NCBI RefSeq assembly: GCF_019879105.1
Contig: NZ_CP082249.1
Span: forward strand, 496,001 to 560,000
DNA length: 64,000 nt
From: Natrinema sp. SYSU A 869
GTDB taxonomy: Archaea > Halobacteriota > Halobacteria > Halobacteriales > Natrialbaceae
Reading direction: 5' to 3'
In this document: positions 18,258 through 51,395 of the stretch, piece by piece
How positions within the stretch are numbered: position 1 is the stretch's first letter
Layout: every line of letters begins with the position of its first letter
Notes under the pieces: generated by a model
The model's input: only the letters and a program-made list of their open reading frames with translations
Told to the model about the DNA's origin: nothing
Database searches by the model: none
Program-made: the position numbers and the translations under genes

Positions 18258-18349
18258 AAAGGTGCCCGATCGGCCATACGGTGGTCGATCGAACGTGGAA
18301 CCGCAATCCGCTAAGGTGGGTCAGGCGCGACGGCCTGATCCCGATCTGT

Positions 18350-19822
<1,473 letters not shown>

Positions 19823-44314: not shown

Positions 44315-45478
44315 ATGAAACTCGCACTCATCGGTTTCGGTCAAGCAGGCGGGAAGGTCGTCGACGAGTTCCTCGCCTTCGACGACGCGATCGACGGCGG
44401 TTTCGTCGAATCGGCGGTCGCAGTCAACTCGGCGACGACGGACCTCAAAGGCCTCGAGCACGTCTCCGAGGAGAACCGCATCCTCATCGGACAGGCGCGT
44501 GTGAAGGGCCACGGTGTCGGTGCGGACAACGAACTCGGCGCGGAAATCGCCGAGGCGAACATCGACGAGCTACAGGGCACGATCGATCGGATCCCGGTCC
44601 ACGAAATCGACGCGTTCCTCGTCGTCGCAGGCATGGGCGGTGGCACCGGATCGGGTGGCGCACCCGTCCTCGCGAAACACCTCCAACGGATCTACACCCA
44701 GCCCGTCTACGGGCTCGGTATCCTCCCCGGGACGGACGAGGGCGGCATCTACACGCTCAACGCGGCCCGCTCGTTCCGGACGTTCGTCGACGAGGTCGAC
44801 AACCTGCTGGTCTTCGACAACGACGCCTGGCGCAGCGCCGGCGAGTCCGTCGAGGGTGGCTACGACCGCATCAACCGTGAAATCGTCGAGCGGTTCGGCC
44901 TCCTCTTCGCTGCCGGCGAGGTCCGAGAGGGCGATCACGTTGCCGAGAGCGTCGTCGACTCGAGCGAGATCATCAACACGCTCTCGTCCAGCGGCGTCTC
45001 CACGATCGGCTACGCCAGCGAGACGGTCGAGACGGGCGGCGGTCTGCTGTCCTCGCTGACCAGCGGCGACGACGACTTCGACGACGGCGCGGCGACGAAC
45101 CGGTTGACCAGCCTCGTTCGCAAGGCCGCTCTCGGCCGGCTCACCCTTCCCTGTGACGTCGGTAGCGCCGACCGCGGCCTCGTCGTTGCGAGCGGCCCAC
45201 CGAGCTATCTCAATCGCAAGGGCGTCGAACGCGGCCGCCAGTGGCTCGAGGACGAGACCGGCAGCATGGAGATCCGCGGCGGTGATTACCCGATCACGGA
45301 TCGGGACGAGGTCGGCGCGATCGTCCTGCTGTCGGGCGTGACCGACGTGCCACGGATCGACCAGCTCCAGCAGGTCGCGATCGAGGCTCAGGAGACGACC
45401 GCAGACGTCCGGGCGAACGCCGAAGAAGACTTCGCGTCGCTGATGGACACCGGCGGCGAACTCGACGCGCTATTTTAA
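44315..45478 (+). CDS. cetZ: CetZ, tubulin/FtsZ-superfamily cytoskeletal protein
   Basis: A 387-residue CetZ. Key parts are MKLALIGFGQAGGKVVDEFL (N-terminal nucleotide motif), RVKGHGVGADNELGAEIAE and the GTP-binding tubulin signature GMGGGTGSGGAP (107-118). CetZ proteins polymerise with GTP and shape haloarchaeal cells (rod development and motility in Haloferax); the sequence is closest to the CetZ1 type from memory. It lacks an FtsZ-like C-terminal partner-binding tail. The ATG at 44315 is the family start; an in-frame leader from 44165 is not conserved-looking. Confidence 0.93.
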   Translation: MKLALIGFGQAGGKVVDEFLAFDDAIDGGFVESAVAVNSATTDLKGLEHVSEENRILIGQARVKGHGVGADNELGAEIAEANIDELQGTIDRIPVHEIDAFLVVAGMGGGTGSGGAPVLAKHLQRIYTQPVYGLGILPGTDEGGIYTLNAARSFRTFVDEVDNLLVFDNDAWRSAGESVEGGYDRINREIVERFGLLFAAGEVREGDHVAESVVDSSEIINTLSSSGVSTIGYASETVETGGGLLSSLTSGDDDFDDGAATNRLTSLVRKAALGRLTLPCDVGSADRGLVVASGPPSYLNRKGVERGRQWLEDETGSMEIRGGDYPITDRDEVGAIVLLSGVTDVPRIDQLQQVAIEAQETTADVRANAEEDFASLMDTGGELDALF

Positions 45479-47261: not shown

Positions 47262-48455
47262 TTAACGCAGCAGCTTTGACAGCTTCTCTCCGAGGCCGTC
47301 GAGGCTGCCACTTTTTCCGTTGAGACGACCTGAAACATCGGAAACGGCTGTCGTCGATCCCATAAGAAGGAGGCGGCCGTCAGACGTGCGTTGGACGACC
47401 GCGCCGTGGTCCGCTGCGATCGATATCAACTGCTCGCTGGCGTCGGTGTCGAGTCCCTCGACCTCGAGGAGTTGGGTCCCCCAATCGTCGGCGAACGCGG
47501 GATCGATGCCGCGCTCTCTGAGCTGGAGGCGGAACTCACGGGTCGAGTTCACGTCCAGTCGCGAGATCGTAATCCCGTCGACGCTGGCACTCGCACGCTC
47601 GGTGAAGGCTTTCCCGATCAGGGCTGCGTCCCGCGTTTCGGCCACGTCGTGGGTTCGGATCACGTGTGCGCCGCGCTCGACTGCCATCGAGGTCGCTGCC
47701 AGACTCACCGGCAGCCGTTCGTCGGTCTCGCGGCCCGCGATTTCGCCGAGGAAGTTCTTGCGGTTGATTGAGACCAGCATCGGCCGGTCGAGCGCACGGA
47801 GTTCGCGGAGCCGGCGGAAGGTTTCGCGGTCGTCCTCGAGCGTCTGAGCCTCGCTCCACCCGCCGAACGCGGGGTCGATGATCGTCTTGTCGGTCAGCCC
47901 GTTCTGTTTCAGTGCCTCGTACACCTGGTCGACGTAGTCGGCGTCCGCTGCCCAGTCCGGGGACTTCCGTGCCGCCCAGTCGGTCTCCTCGATGACACCC
48001 GGCCGCTCGATATCGGGCGGACTCGCCATCTTCGCGACGGCGACGTCGTGCTCCTCGCAGATGGTCGGCATCTCGGGGTCGGCGAACCCACAGATGTCGT
48101 TGACCATGTCGAATCCCTGGGAAAGCGCCTCGTCGGCGACCTCGGCGTACCGGGTCTCGATCGAGAAGATCGCGTCCCCGGAGACGCTCTCGATCGTCTC
48201 GAGTGCGATGTGGAGTCGCTCGAGTTCTTCGTCGGCCGAGAGCACGTCGAAGCGCTTGTTCGCCGACTCGAGGCCGATATCGACGATATCTGCACCCTCA
48301 TCGATCAGGTCCGCATCAACGTAGCGGGCCGCTTCACTGGGGTCGTCGAAGACGCTCGGGTCGTACGGAGACTCTTCGCTGACGTTCAACACGCCCATGA
48401 TCCGGGGCGGATGCTCGTCACCGATCCCTAGGCCGGCGGCATCGACGCTGTTCAT
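47262..48455 (-). CDS. folP: Dihydropteroate synthase, archaeal type with C-terminal extension
   Basis: A 397-residue enzyme of folate/pterin synthesis that joins pterin pyrophosphate to a p-aminobenzoate unit. TIM-barrel motifs are PRIMGVLNVSEESPYDPSVF, DEGADIVDIGLESANKRFDV, GFDMVNDICGF, KTIIDPAFGG, SINRKNFLGE and VIRTHDV. The barrel ends near residue 280. The remaining 115 residues (ASVDGITISRLDVNSTREFR through GLGEKLSKLL) are an extra domain not found in bacterial FolP. The start at 48455 follows the family pattern. It works with mptE next door. Confidence 0.9.
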   Translation of the reverse strand: MNSVDAAGLGIGDEHPPRIMGVLNVSEESPYDPSVFDDPSEAARYVDADLIDEGADIVDIGLESANKRFDVLSADEELERLHIALETIESVSGDAIFSIETRYAEVADEALSQGFDMVNDICGFADPEMPTICEEHDVAVAKMASPPDIERPGVIEETDWAARKSPDWAADADYVDQVYEALKQNGLTDKTIIDPAFGGWSEAQTLEDDRETFRRLRELRALDRPMLVSINRKNFLGEIAGRETDERLPVSLAATSMAVERGAHVIRTHDVAETRDAALIGKAFTERASASVDGITISRLDVNSTREFRLQLRERGIDPAFADDWGTQLLEVEGLDTDASEQLISIAADHGAVVQRTSDGRLLLMGSTTAVSDVSGRLNGKSGSLDGLGEKLSKLLR

Positions 48456-48533: not shown

Positions 48534-49763
48534 CTACTCCTCGTCCTCGAGGACGGCCAGCCGCGAGTCCCGGAGGAGCACCTTCTTGACGATCGAGGGG
48601 TTCTCGAGGAGGCGGTGTTTCGCGTGTGCACCCCGGCCGCGACCCCGGCCCTCGCGCTCGGACTGGATCACGTTGAGGAAGTTCTGTTCCTGGAGGATTT
48701 CCTGAACCCGGCGTTCCGAGAGAACGTCAAAGTCGAGCCGGCGAGCGACCTCCTTGTACTGGTTGTAGATGATCTTCGTGGGGAACTCCTTTTCCGAACT
48801 GTTCTCGGTCAGCAACGTCAGCGAGTAGAGGATCGCCTTGGCCTGCTGTGGGGAGCCCTCGATCAACTCGTTGAAGCGGTCGGCCTCGGTCTTCTCCTTG
48901 GCGTCCCGGACGTGATCCGCGGTGACCCGCGTATCGTTTCGCTTCTTCGCGATCCGACCCGCGTTCCGGAGGATGTCGATCGCCTTGCGTGCATCCCCGT
49001 GTTCCTGTGCGGCAAGTGCAGCGGTCAGCGGAATCACGTCGTCAGAAAGCACCCCGTCGTGGAAGGCATCGCGTCGTTTCTCCAAGATTTCGACGAGCTG
49101 GTTGGCATCGTACGGCGAAAAGACAAGTTCGTCCCGCGAGAGGCTCGATTTGACGCGTTCGGAGAGGTGATCGGGGAAGTCGATCTTGTTCGAGATGCCG
49201 ATGATACCGATACTCGAGTCCGAAATCCGTCGGTTTTCGCCGGCTCGAGAGAGCTTCCGGAGGACTTCGTCGTCCTCGAGCATGTCGATCTCATCTAAGA
49301 TGACGATGGTCACGTCGGTACAGTGATCGATGGCCTGCCAGAGGCGCTTGTAGTAGTCGCCGGTACCCAGCCCGCGGTCGGGGATGGTGACCCCACTCAG
49401 GTCGGGTTCGTTGACGATCTGAGCGATCGTCTTGACGATAGATGCTTCCGTGTTCTGTTCGCCGCAGTCGATGAAGGCGTACTTGACCGTGATATCGTCG
49501 TGCTCGGCTTCGGTGATCACGCGCTGGGTGACTGACCGCGAAATGAGCGATTTGCCGGTGCCGGTCTTGCCGAAGATGAACAGGTGGTTGGGTTCGCTCC
49601 CGAAAATCGCGGGATTCAGGGCGTCCGCAACCCGTTGCATCTGCTCGTCGCGACCGACGATCCGATCCGGACCGGGCAGGTGCGTGATCTCGAGCAGGCG
49701 CTCGTCGGCGAAGACCGGATCGTCGTACCGAAAGAGCGGGTCTCGATCGTCGTTGGCGGACAT
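48534..49763 (-). CDS. orc1: Orc1/Cdc6 replication initiator
   Basis: A 409-residue AAA+ initiator that binds origin repeats and loads the MCM helicase. Walker A is GKTGTGKS (65-72), Walker B VTIVILDEIDML (151-162), and the sensor-1 region IGIIGISNKIDFPDHL follows. The C-terminus holds a winged helix (SLTLLTENSSEKEFPTKIIY, ERRVQEILQEQNFLNVI). The ATG at 49763 is the natural start. Immediately upstream lies a repeat-rich non-coding region read here as its origin. Confidence 0.94.
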   Translation of the reverse strand: MSANDDRDPLFRYDDPVFADERLLEITHLPGPDRIVGRDEQMQRVADALNPAIFGSEPNHLFIFGKTGTGKSLISRSVTQRVITEAEHDDITVKYAFIDCGEQNTEASIVKTIAQIVNEPDLSGVTIPDRGLGTGDYYKRLWQAIDHCTDVTIVILDEIDMLEDDEVLRKLSRAGENRRISDSSIGIIGISNKIDFPDHLSERVKSSLSRDELVFSPYDANQLVEILEKRRDAFHDGVLSDDVIPLTAALAAQEHGDARKAIDILRNAGRIAKKRNDTRVTADHVRDAKEKTEADRFNELIEGSPQQAKAILYSLTLLTENSSEKEFPTKIIYNQYKEVARRLDFDVLSERRVQEILQEQNFLNVIQSEREGRGRGRGAHAKHRLLENPSIVKKVLLRDSRLAVLEDEE

Positions 49764-49932
49764 TGCGATATCCAGTCTCTTCCGACTGAATTGAAATAAA
49801 GGTATGGAGATCGATCGCGTATGTAAATATACCGTATGAGCGCTCGAAATAGGAGATAATAGCGGTATACTCGGAAAGATGGTACAGGGCCACCCTCGCG
49901 TATCTAACTGAGACAGGAGCGAGCCCCGAGAC

Positions 49933-49955
49933 GGACACCCCCATCGCGGATGTAA
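49933..49955 (-). repeat. ORB-like repeat 1
   Basis: On the minus strand TTACATCCGCGATGGGGGTG followed by TCC. It shares TTACA..CGCGA and the G-run plus TGTGT/TGTCC end with the other three repeats but has a different middle. It is the outlying copy, closest to the initiator gene. Confidence 0.72.
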
Positions 49956-50099
49956 GGCTCGGACGATCGAGTCGGTATGAGAGCCACTCGATCCGGTTCC
50001 GGGAGTTGGATTCCGTCCTTTCGCTAGGGACAGAGTTACCCGATACTCGCAGAATACAGTCTCTTCAGGCTGTGAGAAGTTGATTTTCAGATTCCATAC

Positions 50100-50130
50100 G
50101 GGGGACACACCCCCCTCGCGTTTGTAACGG
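50100..50130 (-). repeat. ORB-like repeat 2 (inverted partner of repeat 4)
   Basis: On the minus strand CCGTTACAAACGCGAGGGGG followed by GTGTGTCCCCC. Apart from one extra G in the G-run and the flanks it is identical to repeat 4, 120 bases away in the opposite orientation. A near-perfect inverted pair of about 27 bases of this kind is the strongest single sign of an origin here. Confidence 0.85.
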
Positions 50131-50197
50131 CAATAGCGTGGGGGTGGGAGCAGTTGATTCCGGAATATCCGGATCGAAACCCCTATTCCGGATCGAA

Positions 50198-50225
50198 TTT
50201 ACATCCGCGACGAAGGTGTGTTTCC
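50198..50225 (+). repeat. ORB-like repeat 3
   Basis: TTTACATCCGCGACGAAGGT followed by GTGTTTCC. It matches repeat 1 in its left half (TTACATCCGCGA) and repeats 2 and 4 in GGTGTGT, so it is a weaker copy facing right. Confidence 0.7.
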
Positions 50226-50249
50226 AAACAGGGTCCCCCCACAGAAATC

Positions 50250-50277
50250 CCGTTACAAACGCGAGGGGGTGTGTCCC
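50250..50277 (+). repeat. ORB-like repeat 4
   Basis: CCGTTACAAACGCGAGGGGG followed by TGTGTCCC on the plus strand. It is the inverted partner of repeat 2, with the G-rich end pointing toward the AT-rich tract at 50350-50415. Confidence 0.85.
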
Positions 50278-50355
50278 TCTCTCACTGAGGACGTTACCGG
50301 TCTCTGCCGCAGAAAACCCAAACACACGTGTTCGAGGCGGCGTATTTCCCTCGAG

Positions 50356-50415
50356 GAACTATAGAAACTAGTTACTAATACTGTTACTAGTACTAGTACT
50401 AGTTTGAATAAGAGA
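50356..50415. repeat. AT-rich tract with ACTAGT repeats
   Basis: A 60-base AT-rich stretch (CTATAGAAACTAGTTACTAA onward) with the palindromic hexamer ACTAGT at 50368-50373 and three head-to-tail copies at 50386-50403. It lies about 80-100 bases beyond repeat 4. It is a plausible DNA unwinding element. The simple repeats may also be an effect of low complexity. Confidence 0.6.
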
Positions 50416-50633
50416 GACGAAAGAGAGAGGAAAGAGGAGAGGTGACATGTTCTCCTATTGGAGCCGATCGATCGAGGCGGCGAACACGCTCCTTTTTGCG
50501 TTCCCGCTCGGACTCCGGATATGAACGCGACCACCGGTACGTCGTTTCCGTCGACCACGATCACACCCGATTATCTCGGAACCGAACCGAGACGGGAACT
50601 CCCTCGCCTCGAGTCCACTGCTCCAATGAGCCA

Positions 50634-51395
50634 ATGAGCGACGAATCATCCGATACCGACCGTTCTATGGATCGAACGTCGCCGGTCGTCGCCGTCGTTG
50701 ACGCTCAGTCGCCGGGCAACGTCGGCACGATCGCTCGCGCCATGAAGAACTTCGGCTTCGAGGACCTCCTGCTCGTCGACCCGCCTGAACTCGACCCCGA
50801 CGGTGAGGCGTACGGCTTCGCTGGGCACGCTCGAGAGGACGTCCTTCCGAACGCCGAGGAGATCACCTTCGATCACCTCGCCGAAAACTACCATACGATT
50901 GGCTGTACGGCGGTAACCAATGAGGACGATCACAGCCATATGCGGTTCCCCTACTCGACCCCGGCCGGGCTGGCCGAGCGGTTACCGACCGTCGAGGCAC
51001 CGACTGCCCTCGTCTTCGGCCGCGAGCGCGTCGGTCTGACGAACGAGGAACTCGCCCGGATCGACGAGATCTGCTCGATCCCCGCGAACGCCGAGTATCC
51101 CGTGCTCAATCTCGGGCAGGCCGCCACCATTACCCTCTACGAACTCCGCTCGCTCACTCTCGAGGAGACGCAGTTGCCCGATCTCGAGCGCGTCCGCGCG
51201 CCTGAGTCGACGATCGATCGGCTCTATGACCAGTGGGCGGCGCTGCTCGAGGAAATCAACCATCCCGAGGAGAAACGCGACAAGACGATGCGGATGCTAC
51301 GACGGGTGTACGGGCGGGCCGACCTAACCGAACGCGAGGCGAACACGCTGCTGGGACTCATCCGGCGGGCGACCGAACGGCCGGCCGAGGACTAA
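50634..51395 (+). CDS. SPOUT-family RNA 2'-O-methyltransferase (TrmJ/SpoU type)
   Basis: A 253-residue methyltransferase with the trefoil-knot motifs: VVAVVDAQSPGNVGTIARAM (motif 1), ALVFGRERVGLTNEELARID (motif 2) and IPANAEYPVLNLGQAATITL (motif 3). It uses S-adenosylmethionine to methylate a ribose 2'-OH in tRNA or rRNA. The archaeal TrmJ assignment (position 32 of tRNA) is likely because of the C-terminal helical extension, but unproven. The ATG at 50634 is chosen; the frame upstream runs into the origin. It is divergent from orc1. Confidence 0.88.
   Translation: MSDESSDTDRSMDRTSPVVAVVDAQSPGNVGTIARAMKNFGFEDLLLVDPPELDPDGEAYGFAGHAREDVLPNAEEITFDHLAENYHTIGCTAVTNEDDHSHMRFPYSTPAGLAERLPTVEAPTALVFGRERVGLTNEELARIDEICSIPANAEYPVLNLGQAATITLYELRSLTLEETQLPDLERVRAPESTIDRLYDQWAALLEEINHPEEKRDKTMRMLRRVYGRADLTEREANTLLGLIRRATERPAED

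Follow-up and report, generated by a model that had tools for sequence, protein, structure and literature searches.

In the haloarchaeal oriC1-Orc1/Cdc6A system (Wu et al. 2012, PMC3528665; Wu et al. 2014, PMC3936714), an orc gene lies beside inverted ORBs with extended G-strings, and an inner G-rich repeat is present. The locus described here is built likewise. For oriC1 of Haloarcula hispanica, it is reported that the inner repeat enhances initiation and that the G-strings are essential (PMC3936714). According to PMC7776575, each ORB is bound by a single Orc in a defined orientation, with the AAA+ part touching the G-string. A second type of system comprises other, later-acquired origins beside orc/cdc6 genes, such as oriC2-cdc6E of Haloarcula hispanica, a lineage-specific origin with its initiator, which is added to a chromosome carrying oriC1; the locus described here would likewise be such an addition.

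The candidate origin belongs to a known class, and an ortholog is already published as a predicted oriC, namely oriC9 (ARS-5) of Natrinema sp. J7 (PMC5350488). This correspondence was made via Natrinema gari rather than the J7 genome: both ARS-5 primers match perfectly in the Natrinema gari orthologue, where they span the whole array and the gene. In PMC5350488, oriC9 is listed with one ORB, as called by Ori-Finder 2, while the Natrinema gari orthologue shows six cores.

We consider it likely, from sequence comparison, that the locus is a second origin with its own initiator, and that this Orc1 is an autoregulator with predicted sites at the origin core and at its own promoter (ORB6, probably also ORB5).

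The array, the initiator gene and their genome setting

The stretch of DNA that was analysed (the window, 64 kb) corresponds to C3:496001-560000 of a 5.67 Mb genome with contigs of 3.90, 0.89 and 0.88 Mb. The host is a Natrinema-like haloarchaeon, and Orc1 orthologues from named Natrinema are 97-99% identical. The orc1/cdc6 initiator gene (48534..49763, minus strand) is intact and codes for a full-length protein of 409 aa, which is above the 300 aa taken as the minimum for this class of locus. It has the AAA+ and winged-helix domains (TIGR02928, Cdc6_lid, Cdc6_C). The score against TIGR02928 is 412.5 bits (cut-off 181.3), which bears out the Orc1/Cdc6 gene that the first-pass annotation had placed beside the repeats. 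Four winged-helix arginines are said to mark initiators (PMC9738581), and all four appear to be kept in the alignment, in which we matched the residues ourselves. By its sequence, the protein is of the initiator type.

On its left, orc1 is flanked by a gene for a folP-like pterin-binding enzyme (47262..48455, minus strand; PF00809), and a gene for a trmJ-like RNA methyltransferase (50634..51395, plus strand; TIGR00050, above cut-off) lies to the right of the array. The 16S rRNA gene (18349..19822, minus strand, which is C3:514349-515822; RF01959) is about 30 kb from the candidate origin and is transcribed away from it, a layout described at Haloarcula and Haloferax origins (PMC4441112). A CetZ-type tubulin gene is found at 44315-45478, about 5 kb from the origin.

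A profile search finds 23 Orc-like places above the family cut-off in the genome. Each of the two contigs of about 0.9 Mb carries a full-length 16S rRNA match (G000:C1:100132-101604 and G000:C2:132279-133752), and they may therefore be secondary chromosomes instead of plasmids. Two pairs of Orc genes, L006/L008 and L014/L015, have upstream ORBs that are much alike (compared by eye, unaligned). As such Orc genes occur on both of these large extrachromosomal contigs, the question of origin compatibility arises.

The region from the start codon of orc1 to trmJ holds six ORB cores, and the exact core TTASANNCGCGA is not found anywhere else in the 64-kb window. The first-pass annotation had counted four repeats, two facing each way; with six cores, four are on the minus strand and two on the plus strand. 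Two strong ORBs carry an extended G-string: ORB1 (50251..50277, core 50253-50264, plus strand) and ORB3 (50102..50129, core 50116-50127, minus strand). The adjoining intergenic region thus has at least two inverted G-string ORBs, plus four more cores. These are ORB2 (core 50199-50210, plus strand) and three on the minus strand, ORB4 (core 49944-49955, with a G-string), ORB5 (core 49896-49907, starting 144 nt before the ATG) and the promoter-proximal ORB6 (core 49815-49826, starting 63 nt before the ATG), which is devoid of a G-string. A TATA-like box of orc1, TTTAT, is called by pattern only at 49796..49800 (minus strand).

ORB1 and ORB3 had been described as near-identical over about 27 bases in opposite orientation, and they are in fact identical over 27-28 nt, save one extra C. 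Exact inverted matching extends over 20 nt at most, and the best of 30 dinucleotide shuffles gave 16 nt. When the 20-mer GTTACAAACGCGAGGGGGTG is searched in the 5.67-Mb genome with up to 3 mismatches, three places are found, two being copies in the window (0 and 2 mismatches) and one being elsewhere (3 mismatches). An inner inverted repeat sits between ORB1 and ORB3. Its G-rich arm GTGGGGGTGGGA (50138..50149, plus strand) is mostly kept in an alignment of 38, and its C-rich partner GGTCCCCCCAC (50232..50242, plus strand) is mostly conserved.

Two AT-rich flanks had also been noted previously, and these stand out at the two ends of the array from a window with 62% GC. One (49764..49880, 41% GC) contains ORB6 and the orc1 promoter. 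The other (50341..50430, 37% GC), beyond ORB1, has ACTAGT repeats and is partly conserved; it is a possible unwinding element. GC is 54.5% between ORB1 and ORB3. A run of ACTAGT-type repeats with 27% GC is located at 50367-50411 and is similar in some, not all, Natrinema relatives.

Conservation and possible activity of the candidate origin

Of 72 matched loci, the scan covered 58 (L047-L104) and left out 14 paralogues or fragments with 31-47% identity. The neighbourhood is common to 45 of the 58 scanned loci (Orc1 91-99% identical), with trmJ in 44 and folP in 40 of these 45 relatives within the sequence examined. In the DNA of the other 13 loci (64-87% identical: L089-L092, L094-L097, L099-L102, L104), no neighbour gene of the window was detected, which is why they are outside the set of 46 loci formed by the window and its 45 relatives. 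These 46 are not independent, since many are from close Natrinema or are near-duplicates. The first-pass annotation had made its reading depend on matching repeats beside the same initiator in relatives, and all 45 same-neighbourhood relatives have them, with equal core spacings. It had taken as known that haloarchaeal origins pair an initiator gene with inverted ORBs, which agrees with the orc-adjacent, cognate inverted ORBs conserved in these 45 relatives.

Spacing is rigid in the origin core, where ORB1 and ORB2 are 54.2 +/- 0.8 and ORB2 and ORB3 82.5 +/- 0.8 apart (46 loci, with sites chosen inside preset position windows). ORB2 is found in 46/46 loci with 0-2 mismatches. The place of ORB4 differs between relatives, the standard deviation of the spacing being 74 for ORB3-ORB4 and 39 for ORB4-ORB5 (46 loci, same position windows). 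The distance from the gene to the core ranges over hundreds of nt.

This strictly held core spacing bears on whether the origin fires. The first-pass annotation had inferred an active origin bound by this initiator, whereas we regard its activity as a possibility. A dormant or relic origin, in which array and initiator persist but are normally silent (perhaps serving as a backup), is a possibility that we regard as real but rather doubtful. Dormant orc-linked origins are reported in Haloferax mediterranei (PMC4595724), and the plasmid pFJ5 with J7 ARS-5 gave less than 10 cfu/ug (PMC5350488). The GC skew also fits a dormant origin. The switch at 50 kb that the first-pass annotation had suggested as a check is absent, and no lasting switch occurs over 414 kb. 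Left and right of the locus, GC skew is +0.008 and -0.027 within 20 kb and -0.005 and -0.004 within 100 kb, and the minimum of the cumulative skew (at 575,989, in 414 kb) is not centred on the locus. A dormant origin is, however, at odds with the core spacing in 46 loci and with the fact that pFJ5 did replicate; its authors report structurally stable, independent replication (PMC5350488). The poor transformation could equally mean incompatibility, as described for Haloarcula hispanica oriC2 plasmids (PMC3936714). For the origin in the window, weak function in plasmids, incompatibility with a resident copy and dormancy are all conceivable.

The promoter module and the ORBs of other orc genes

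Rigid spacing is also seen next to the gene. When forward cores up to 150 nt from the ATG were searched with at most one mismatch and no position filter, they were found only at -143 to -145 (ORB5) and at -62/-63 (ORB6), and this in 46/46 loci. No reverse core was detected within 300 nt of the ATG in the 46 loci under the same settings. The distances of ORB5 and ORB6 to the ATG differ by no more than 2 nt among all 46 loci, a result that was repeated without position filter. The spacer between ORB5 and ORB6 is kept in length and not in sequence, with a median identity of 0.38 in the 37 of 45 loci that have equal length. As judged from these distances, the array consists of an origin core (ORB1-ORB2-ORB3) and a promoter module (ORB5-ORB6-TATA-ATG) on linkers of variable length in 46/46 loci.

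Downstream of the ORB6 core, a TTAT box starts after 15 nt in 52 of 59 loci, after 16 nt in three and after 25-26 nt in three more; it was not found in one of the 59 (L099). About one helical turn separates the 15-nt and 25-nt classes. ORB6 also occurs in loci of Halorussus and Halogranum in which no neighbour gene of the window was detected, and the TTAT spacing holds in Halorussus. Because of this fixed spacing to ATG and TATA box, and because of its presence in loci devoid of the window's neighbours, we conclude that the place of ORB6 tracks the promoter of the gene and not the origin core. The promoter of orc1 (its TATA box being called by pattern only) thus contains ORB6 and ORB5, which are predicted sites for its own product.

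Orc1 binding at the ORBs is deduced from their sequence conservation. In the proposed mechanism, Orc1 would bind the strong inverted pair ORB1/ORB3, together with ORB2 and the inner G-rich repeat, and load MCM there. It would also bind ORB6, probably with ORB5, directly upstream of its own TATA box. As the AAA+ part sits on the G-string side of an ORB, Orc1 bound at ORB6 would face BRE/TATA, most likely hindering TFB/TBP. Abundant Orc1 would then repress its own synthesis. Each replication round would double the sites, so that Orc1 would be titrated and repression relieved. That the sign is repression rather than activation is a guess. ORB6 may bind poorly, which would fit a weak site that is filled last. 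Such an affinity ladder would not be general, because the promoter copy carries a G-string in several other families.

We analyzed whether other orc genes have an ORB at this place. Among 19 of the genome's Orc places, many have their own family-specific ORB in the last 130 nt, mostly facing the gene, and the expectation ("about -80 to -40, forward") was set from this genome before other families were analyzed. The search pattern missed 13 loci, mostly oriC1-type and L019-type, and the oriC1-type genes were examined separately later. In a cognate-score test, 40 genes were entered and 34 had distal repeats. Within the 110 nt nearest the gene, mean scores are 14.9 for the cognate ORB and 8.1 for non-cognate motifs; the cognate ORB comes first (ties counted) in 24 of the 34 genes. 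The reversed cognate motif scores 10.6 (background 7.3); forward exceeds reverse in 24 of 34 genes and is below it in six.

For the position test, we discarded near-duplicates by visual inspection and kept 33 genes (17 from this genome, 15 from eight other-family genomes, and L110). Repeats were not found in two of them (L019, L144), so that 31 dereplicated divergent orc genes remained. A forward own-ORB centred at -80 to -38 is found in 22 of the 31 and a reverse one in L139. No site was found in the position window for the other eight (L004, L012, L013, L018, L020, L133, L150, L110). Visual inspection shows an ORB-like half adjoining the TATA box of L012 and L110, and L004 has an ORB directly before the ATG. 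Genes from other families that have repeats show a forward site in 11 of 14 cases. The motif models were built from repeats anywhere upstream, and 20,000 rotations gave a mean of 6.3 and a maximum of 15. With the null confined to the last 400 nt, mean and maximum are 9.7 and 20. These comparisons are optimistic, as the method was refined twice after results had been seen; the cruder versions gave 12 forward and 5 reverse sites among the 31, and then 20 and 3. For L004, L005 and L018, start codons were assigned manually. L005 has no proximal site if the automatic start is used, and the count without L005 is 21/30. Across families, nine spacings fall in a 70-90 nt bin and hint at a further forward ORB that far upstream of the promoter ORB, which is not claimed.

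Eight oriC1-type genes were examined. A forward ORB about 25-32 nt before the ATG is seen in L159, L146 and L152, which is not where other Orc families have it; four genes show none close to the chosen start codon, and the eighth lacks a usable one. As oriC1-type genes deviate, a rule is claimed for non-oriC1 Orc families only, and our confidence in the general reading was lowered slightly after they had been examined. With this restriction, the balance tips modestly towards the view that non-oriC1 haloarchaeal initiators would, as a rule, control their own supply through a family-specific forward ORB directly upstream of their own TATA box. Initiator and origin would evolve as a unit of two rigid modules, one for loading and one for feedback at the promoter, with a linker that is free in length.

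Two alternatives concern the promoter-proximal ORBs. They might serve the origin itself, for instance by bordering an unwinding element within the AT-rich DNA of the promoter, the fixed distance to the gene reflecting a promoter constraint with no autoregulation. The stretch around ORB6 is AT-rich (41% GC), and archaeal ORBs are described as typically flanking AT-rich DNA (PMC7776575). This reading is nevertheless unlikely: the distances between ORB5, ORB6 and ATG are almost constant, whereas the gap to the origin core varies by hundreds of nt, and divergent orc families tend to carry an ORB of their own, with another sequence, in a comparable position. Alternatively, ORB6 and ORB5 might activate orc1, either through its product or through another Orc paralogue. 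We give this little credence as well, even though a position just upstream of BRE/TATA would also suit an activator, as would the two spacing classes one helical turn apart, and nothing decisive stands against it. The match between the gene's own ORBs and the promoter ORB favours its own product over a paralogue. Autoregulation of orc1 by its product is the preferred reading.

Relation to oriC1, history of the locus and comparison with known systems

It was first assumed that the locus is oriC1. This was dropped on the basis of scores against NF001625, the conservation of another Orc gene elsewhere, and differing repeats. The NF001625 equivalog, which we take to stand for the oriC1 type, gives 320 bits with the Orc1 of the window, below the cut-off of 501, and 652 bits with the product of an Orc gene on the same chromosome (L017, C3:2219433-2220974). 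The L017 protein is 69-83% identical (in the best aligned segment) to Orc proteins in seven of ten other-family genomes; the remaining three (G030, G037, G040) have a split match of the L017 type. A whole-genome search with the Orc1 of the window in 15 other-family genomes gave a best identity of 49-50% in five, and no match at E <= 1e-110 in the other ten. Among Orc genes taken from nine of the ten genomes compared with L017, it is at most 51% identical, and those matches prefer other paralogues; the tenth of these genomes, G040, has a 73% match. The region upstream of L017 has its own inverted repeats with a differing sequence, which reads TCCACTCGAAA...AGGGG, while the core in the window is TTACAAACGCGA. 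The Orc1 of the window is thus not of the conserved oriC1 family, and its ORB sequence is not oriC1-type. As L017 is oriC1-type with its own inverted repeats, the chromosome has at least two orc-linked origin candidates. The candidate in the window looks like the secondary one, specific to its lineage and with an initiator of its own beside it.

That it is instead the conserved main origin oriC1, firing every cycle, is very improbable: its orc gene, inverted G-string ORBs and inner G-rich repeat are all oriC1-like, and the rRNA operon 30 kb away is directed away from it, but its Orc1 is poorly matched in other families, where matches prefer other paralogues, and it fails NF001625, which L017 passes with repeats of its own kind.

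The history of this secondary origin can be approached through its neighbours. Among eight trmJ stretches from other families, three have folP nearby in divergent orientation, and small genes, including a conserved one, stand between the two; neither an orc gene nor an exact ORB core is present between folP and trmJ in those three. In L199, L200 and L204, a small gene between folP and trmJ, the product of which has KVSIGLRGWRF near its start, is located where the window's relatives carry orc and origin. Most simply, the locus would have arisen by insertion of initiator and origin at the folP/trmJ junction in an ancestor of most Natrialbaceae, with loss elsewhere as the alternative. Insertion is consistent with the model of later-acquired origins (PMC3528665).

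A plasmid search with the origin gave a single match, which is the same locus in a 987-kb replicon of Natrinema thermotolerans. In strain A29, the locus (L178, CP031304.1:694975-707160) is accompanied by folP, trmJ and a gatB/E-like gene on this plasmid-labelled record, which is suggested to be a split chromosome or a mislabelled contig. The idea that the locus is the sole origin of the 987-kb replicon was abandoned, as the replicon holds four more Orc matches, of which three are strong and the fourth is weaker (185.8 bits, cut-off 181.3).

In the literature searched, which excludes subscription papers and supplements, we did not meet the two-module anatomy or a promoter-embedded cognate ORB. 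The nearest published statement concerns one Haloarcula origin, for which loss of the cdc6 promoter is reported to have abolished plasmid replication (PMC4441112). A 2024 review states that it is not yet clear how archaea restrict origin firing (PMC7617429), and a family-matched ORB in the orc promoter would be a concrete mechanism for such restriction. If true, it helps to explain how about 23 Orc-like places keep initiator levels and origins separate, and also why initiator genes stay beside their origins. For plasmid replication in Haloarcula hispanica, cis linkage of the initiator gene is reported to be unneeded (PMC3936714).

Outside the archaea, bacterial dnaA likewise has initiator sites (DnaA boxes) in its own promoter beside the origin, as mentioned in PMC3936714. 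The machinery is, however, unrelated, as the window has an AAA+ Orc1 with TBP/TFB transcription, and autoregulation is a prediction here. Within the archaea, Orc1-2 of Saccharolobus, a member of the Orc1 family, is described as regulating transcription (PMC9738581). It is a non-initiator, while the Orc1 of the window appears to keep the arginines attributed to initiators in that paper. Compared to the oriC2-cdc6E type, the locus lacks a downstream ORB cluster (there is no further exact core in the 64 kb), and regulation is proposed to occur at the initiator's promoter. With oriC1, it shares an inner G-rich arm that resembles the enhancer repeat, but it differs in its Orc family, its ORB sequence and its neighbours (folP, trmJ), and it has six ORBs arranged in two rigid modules.
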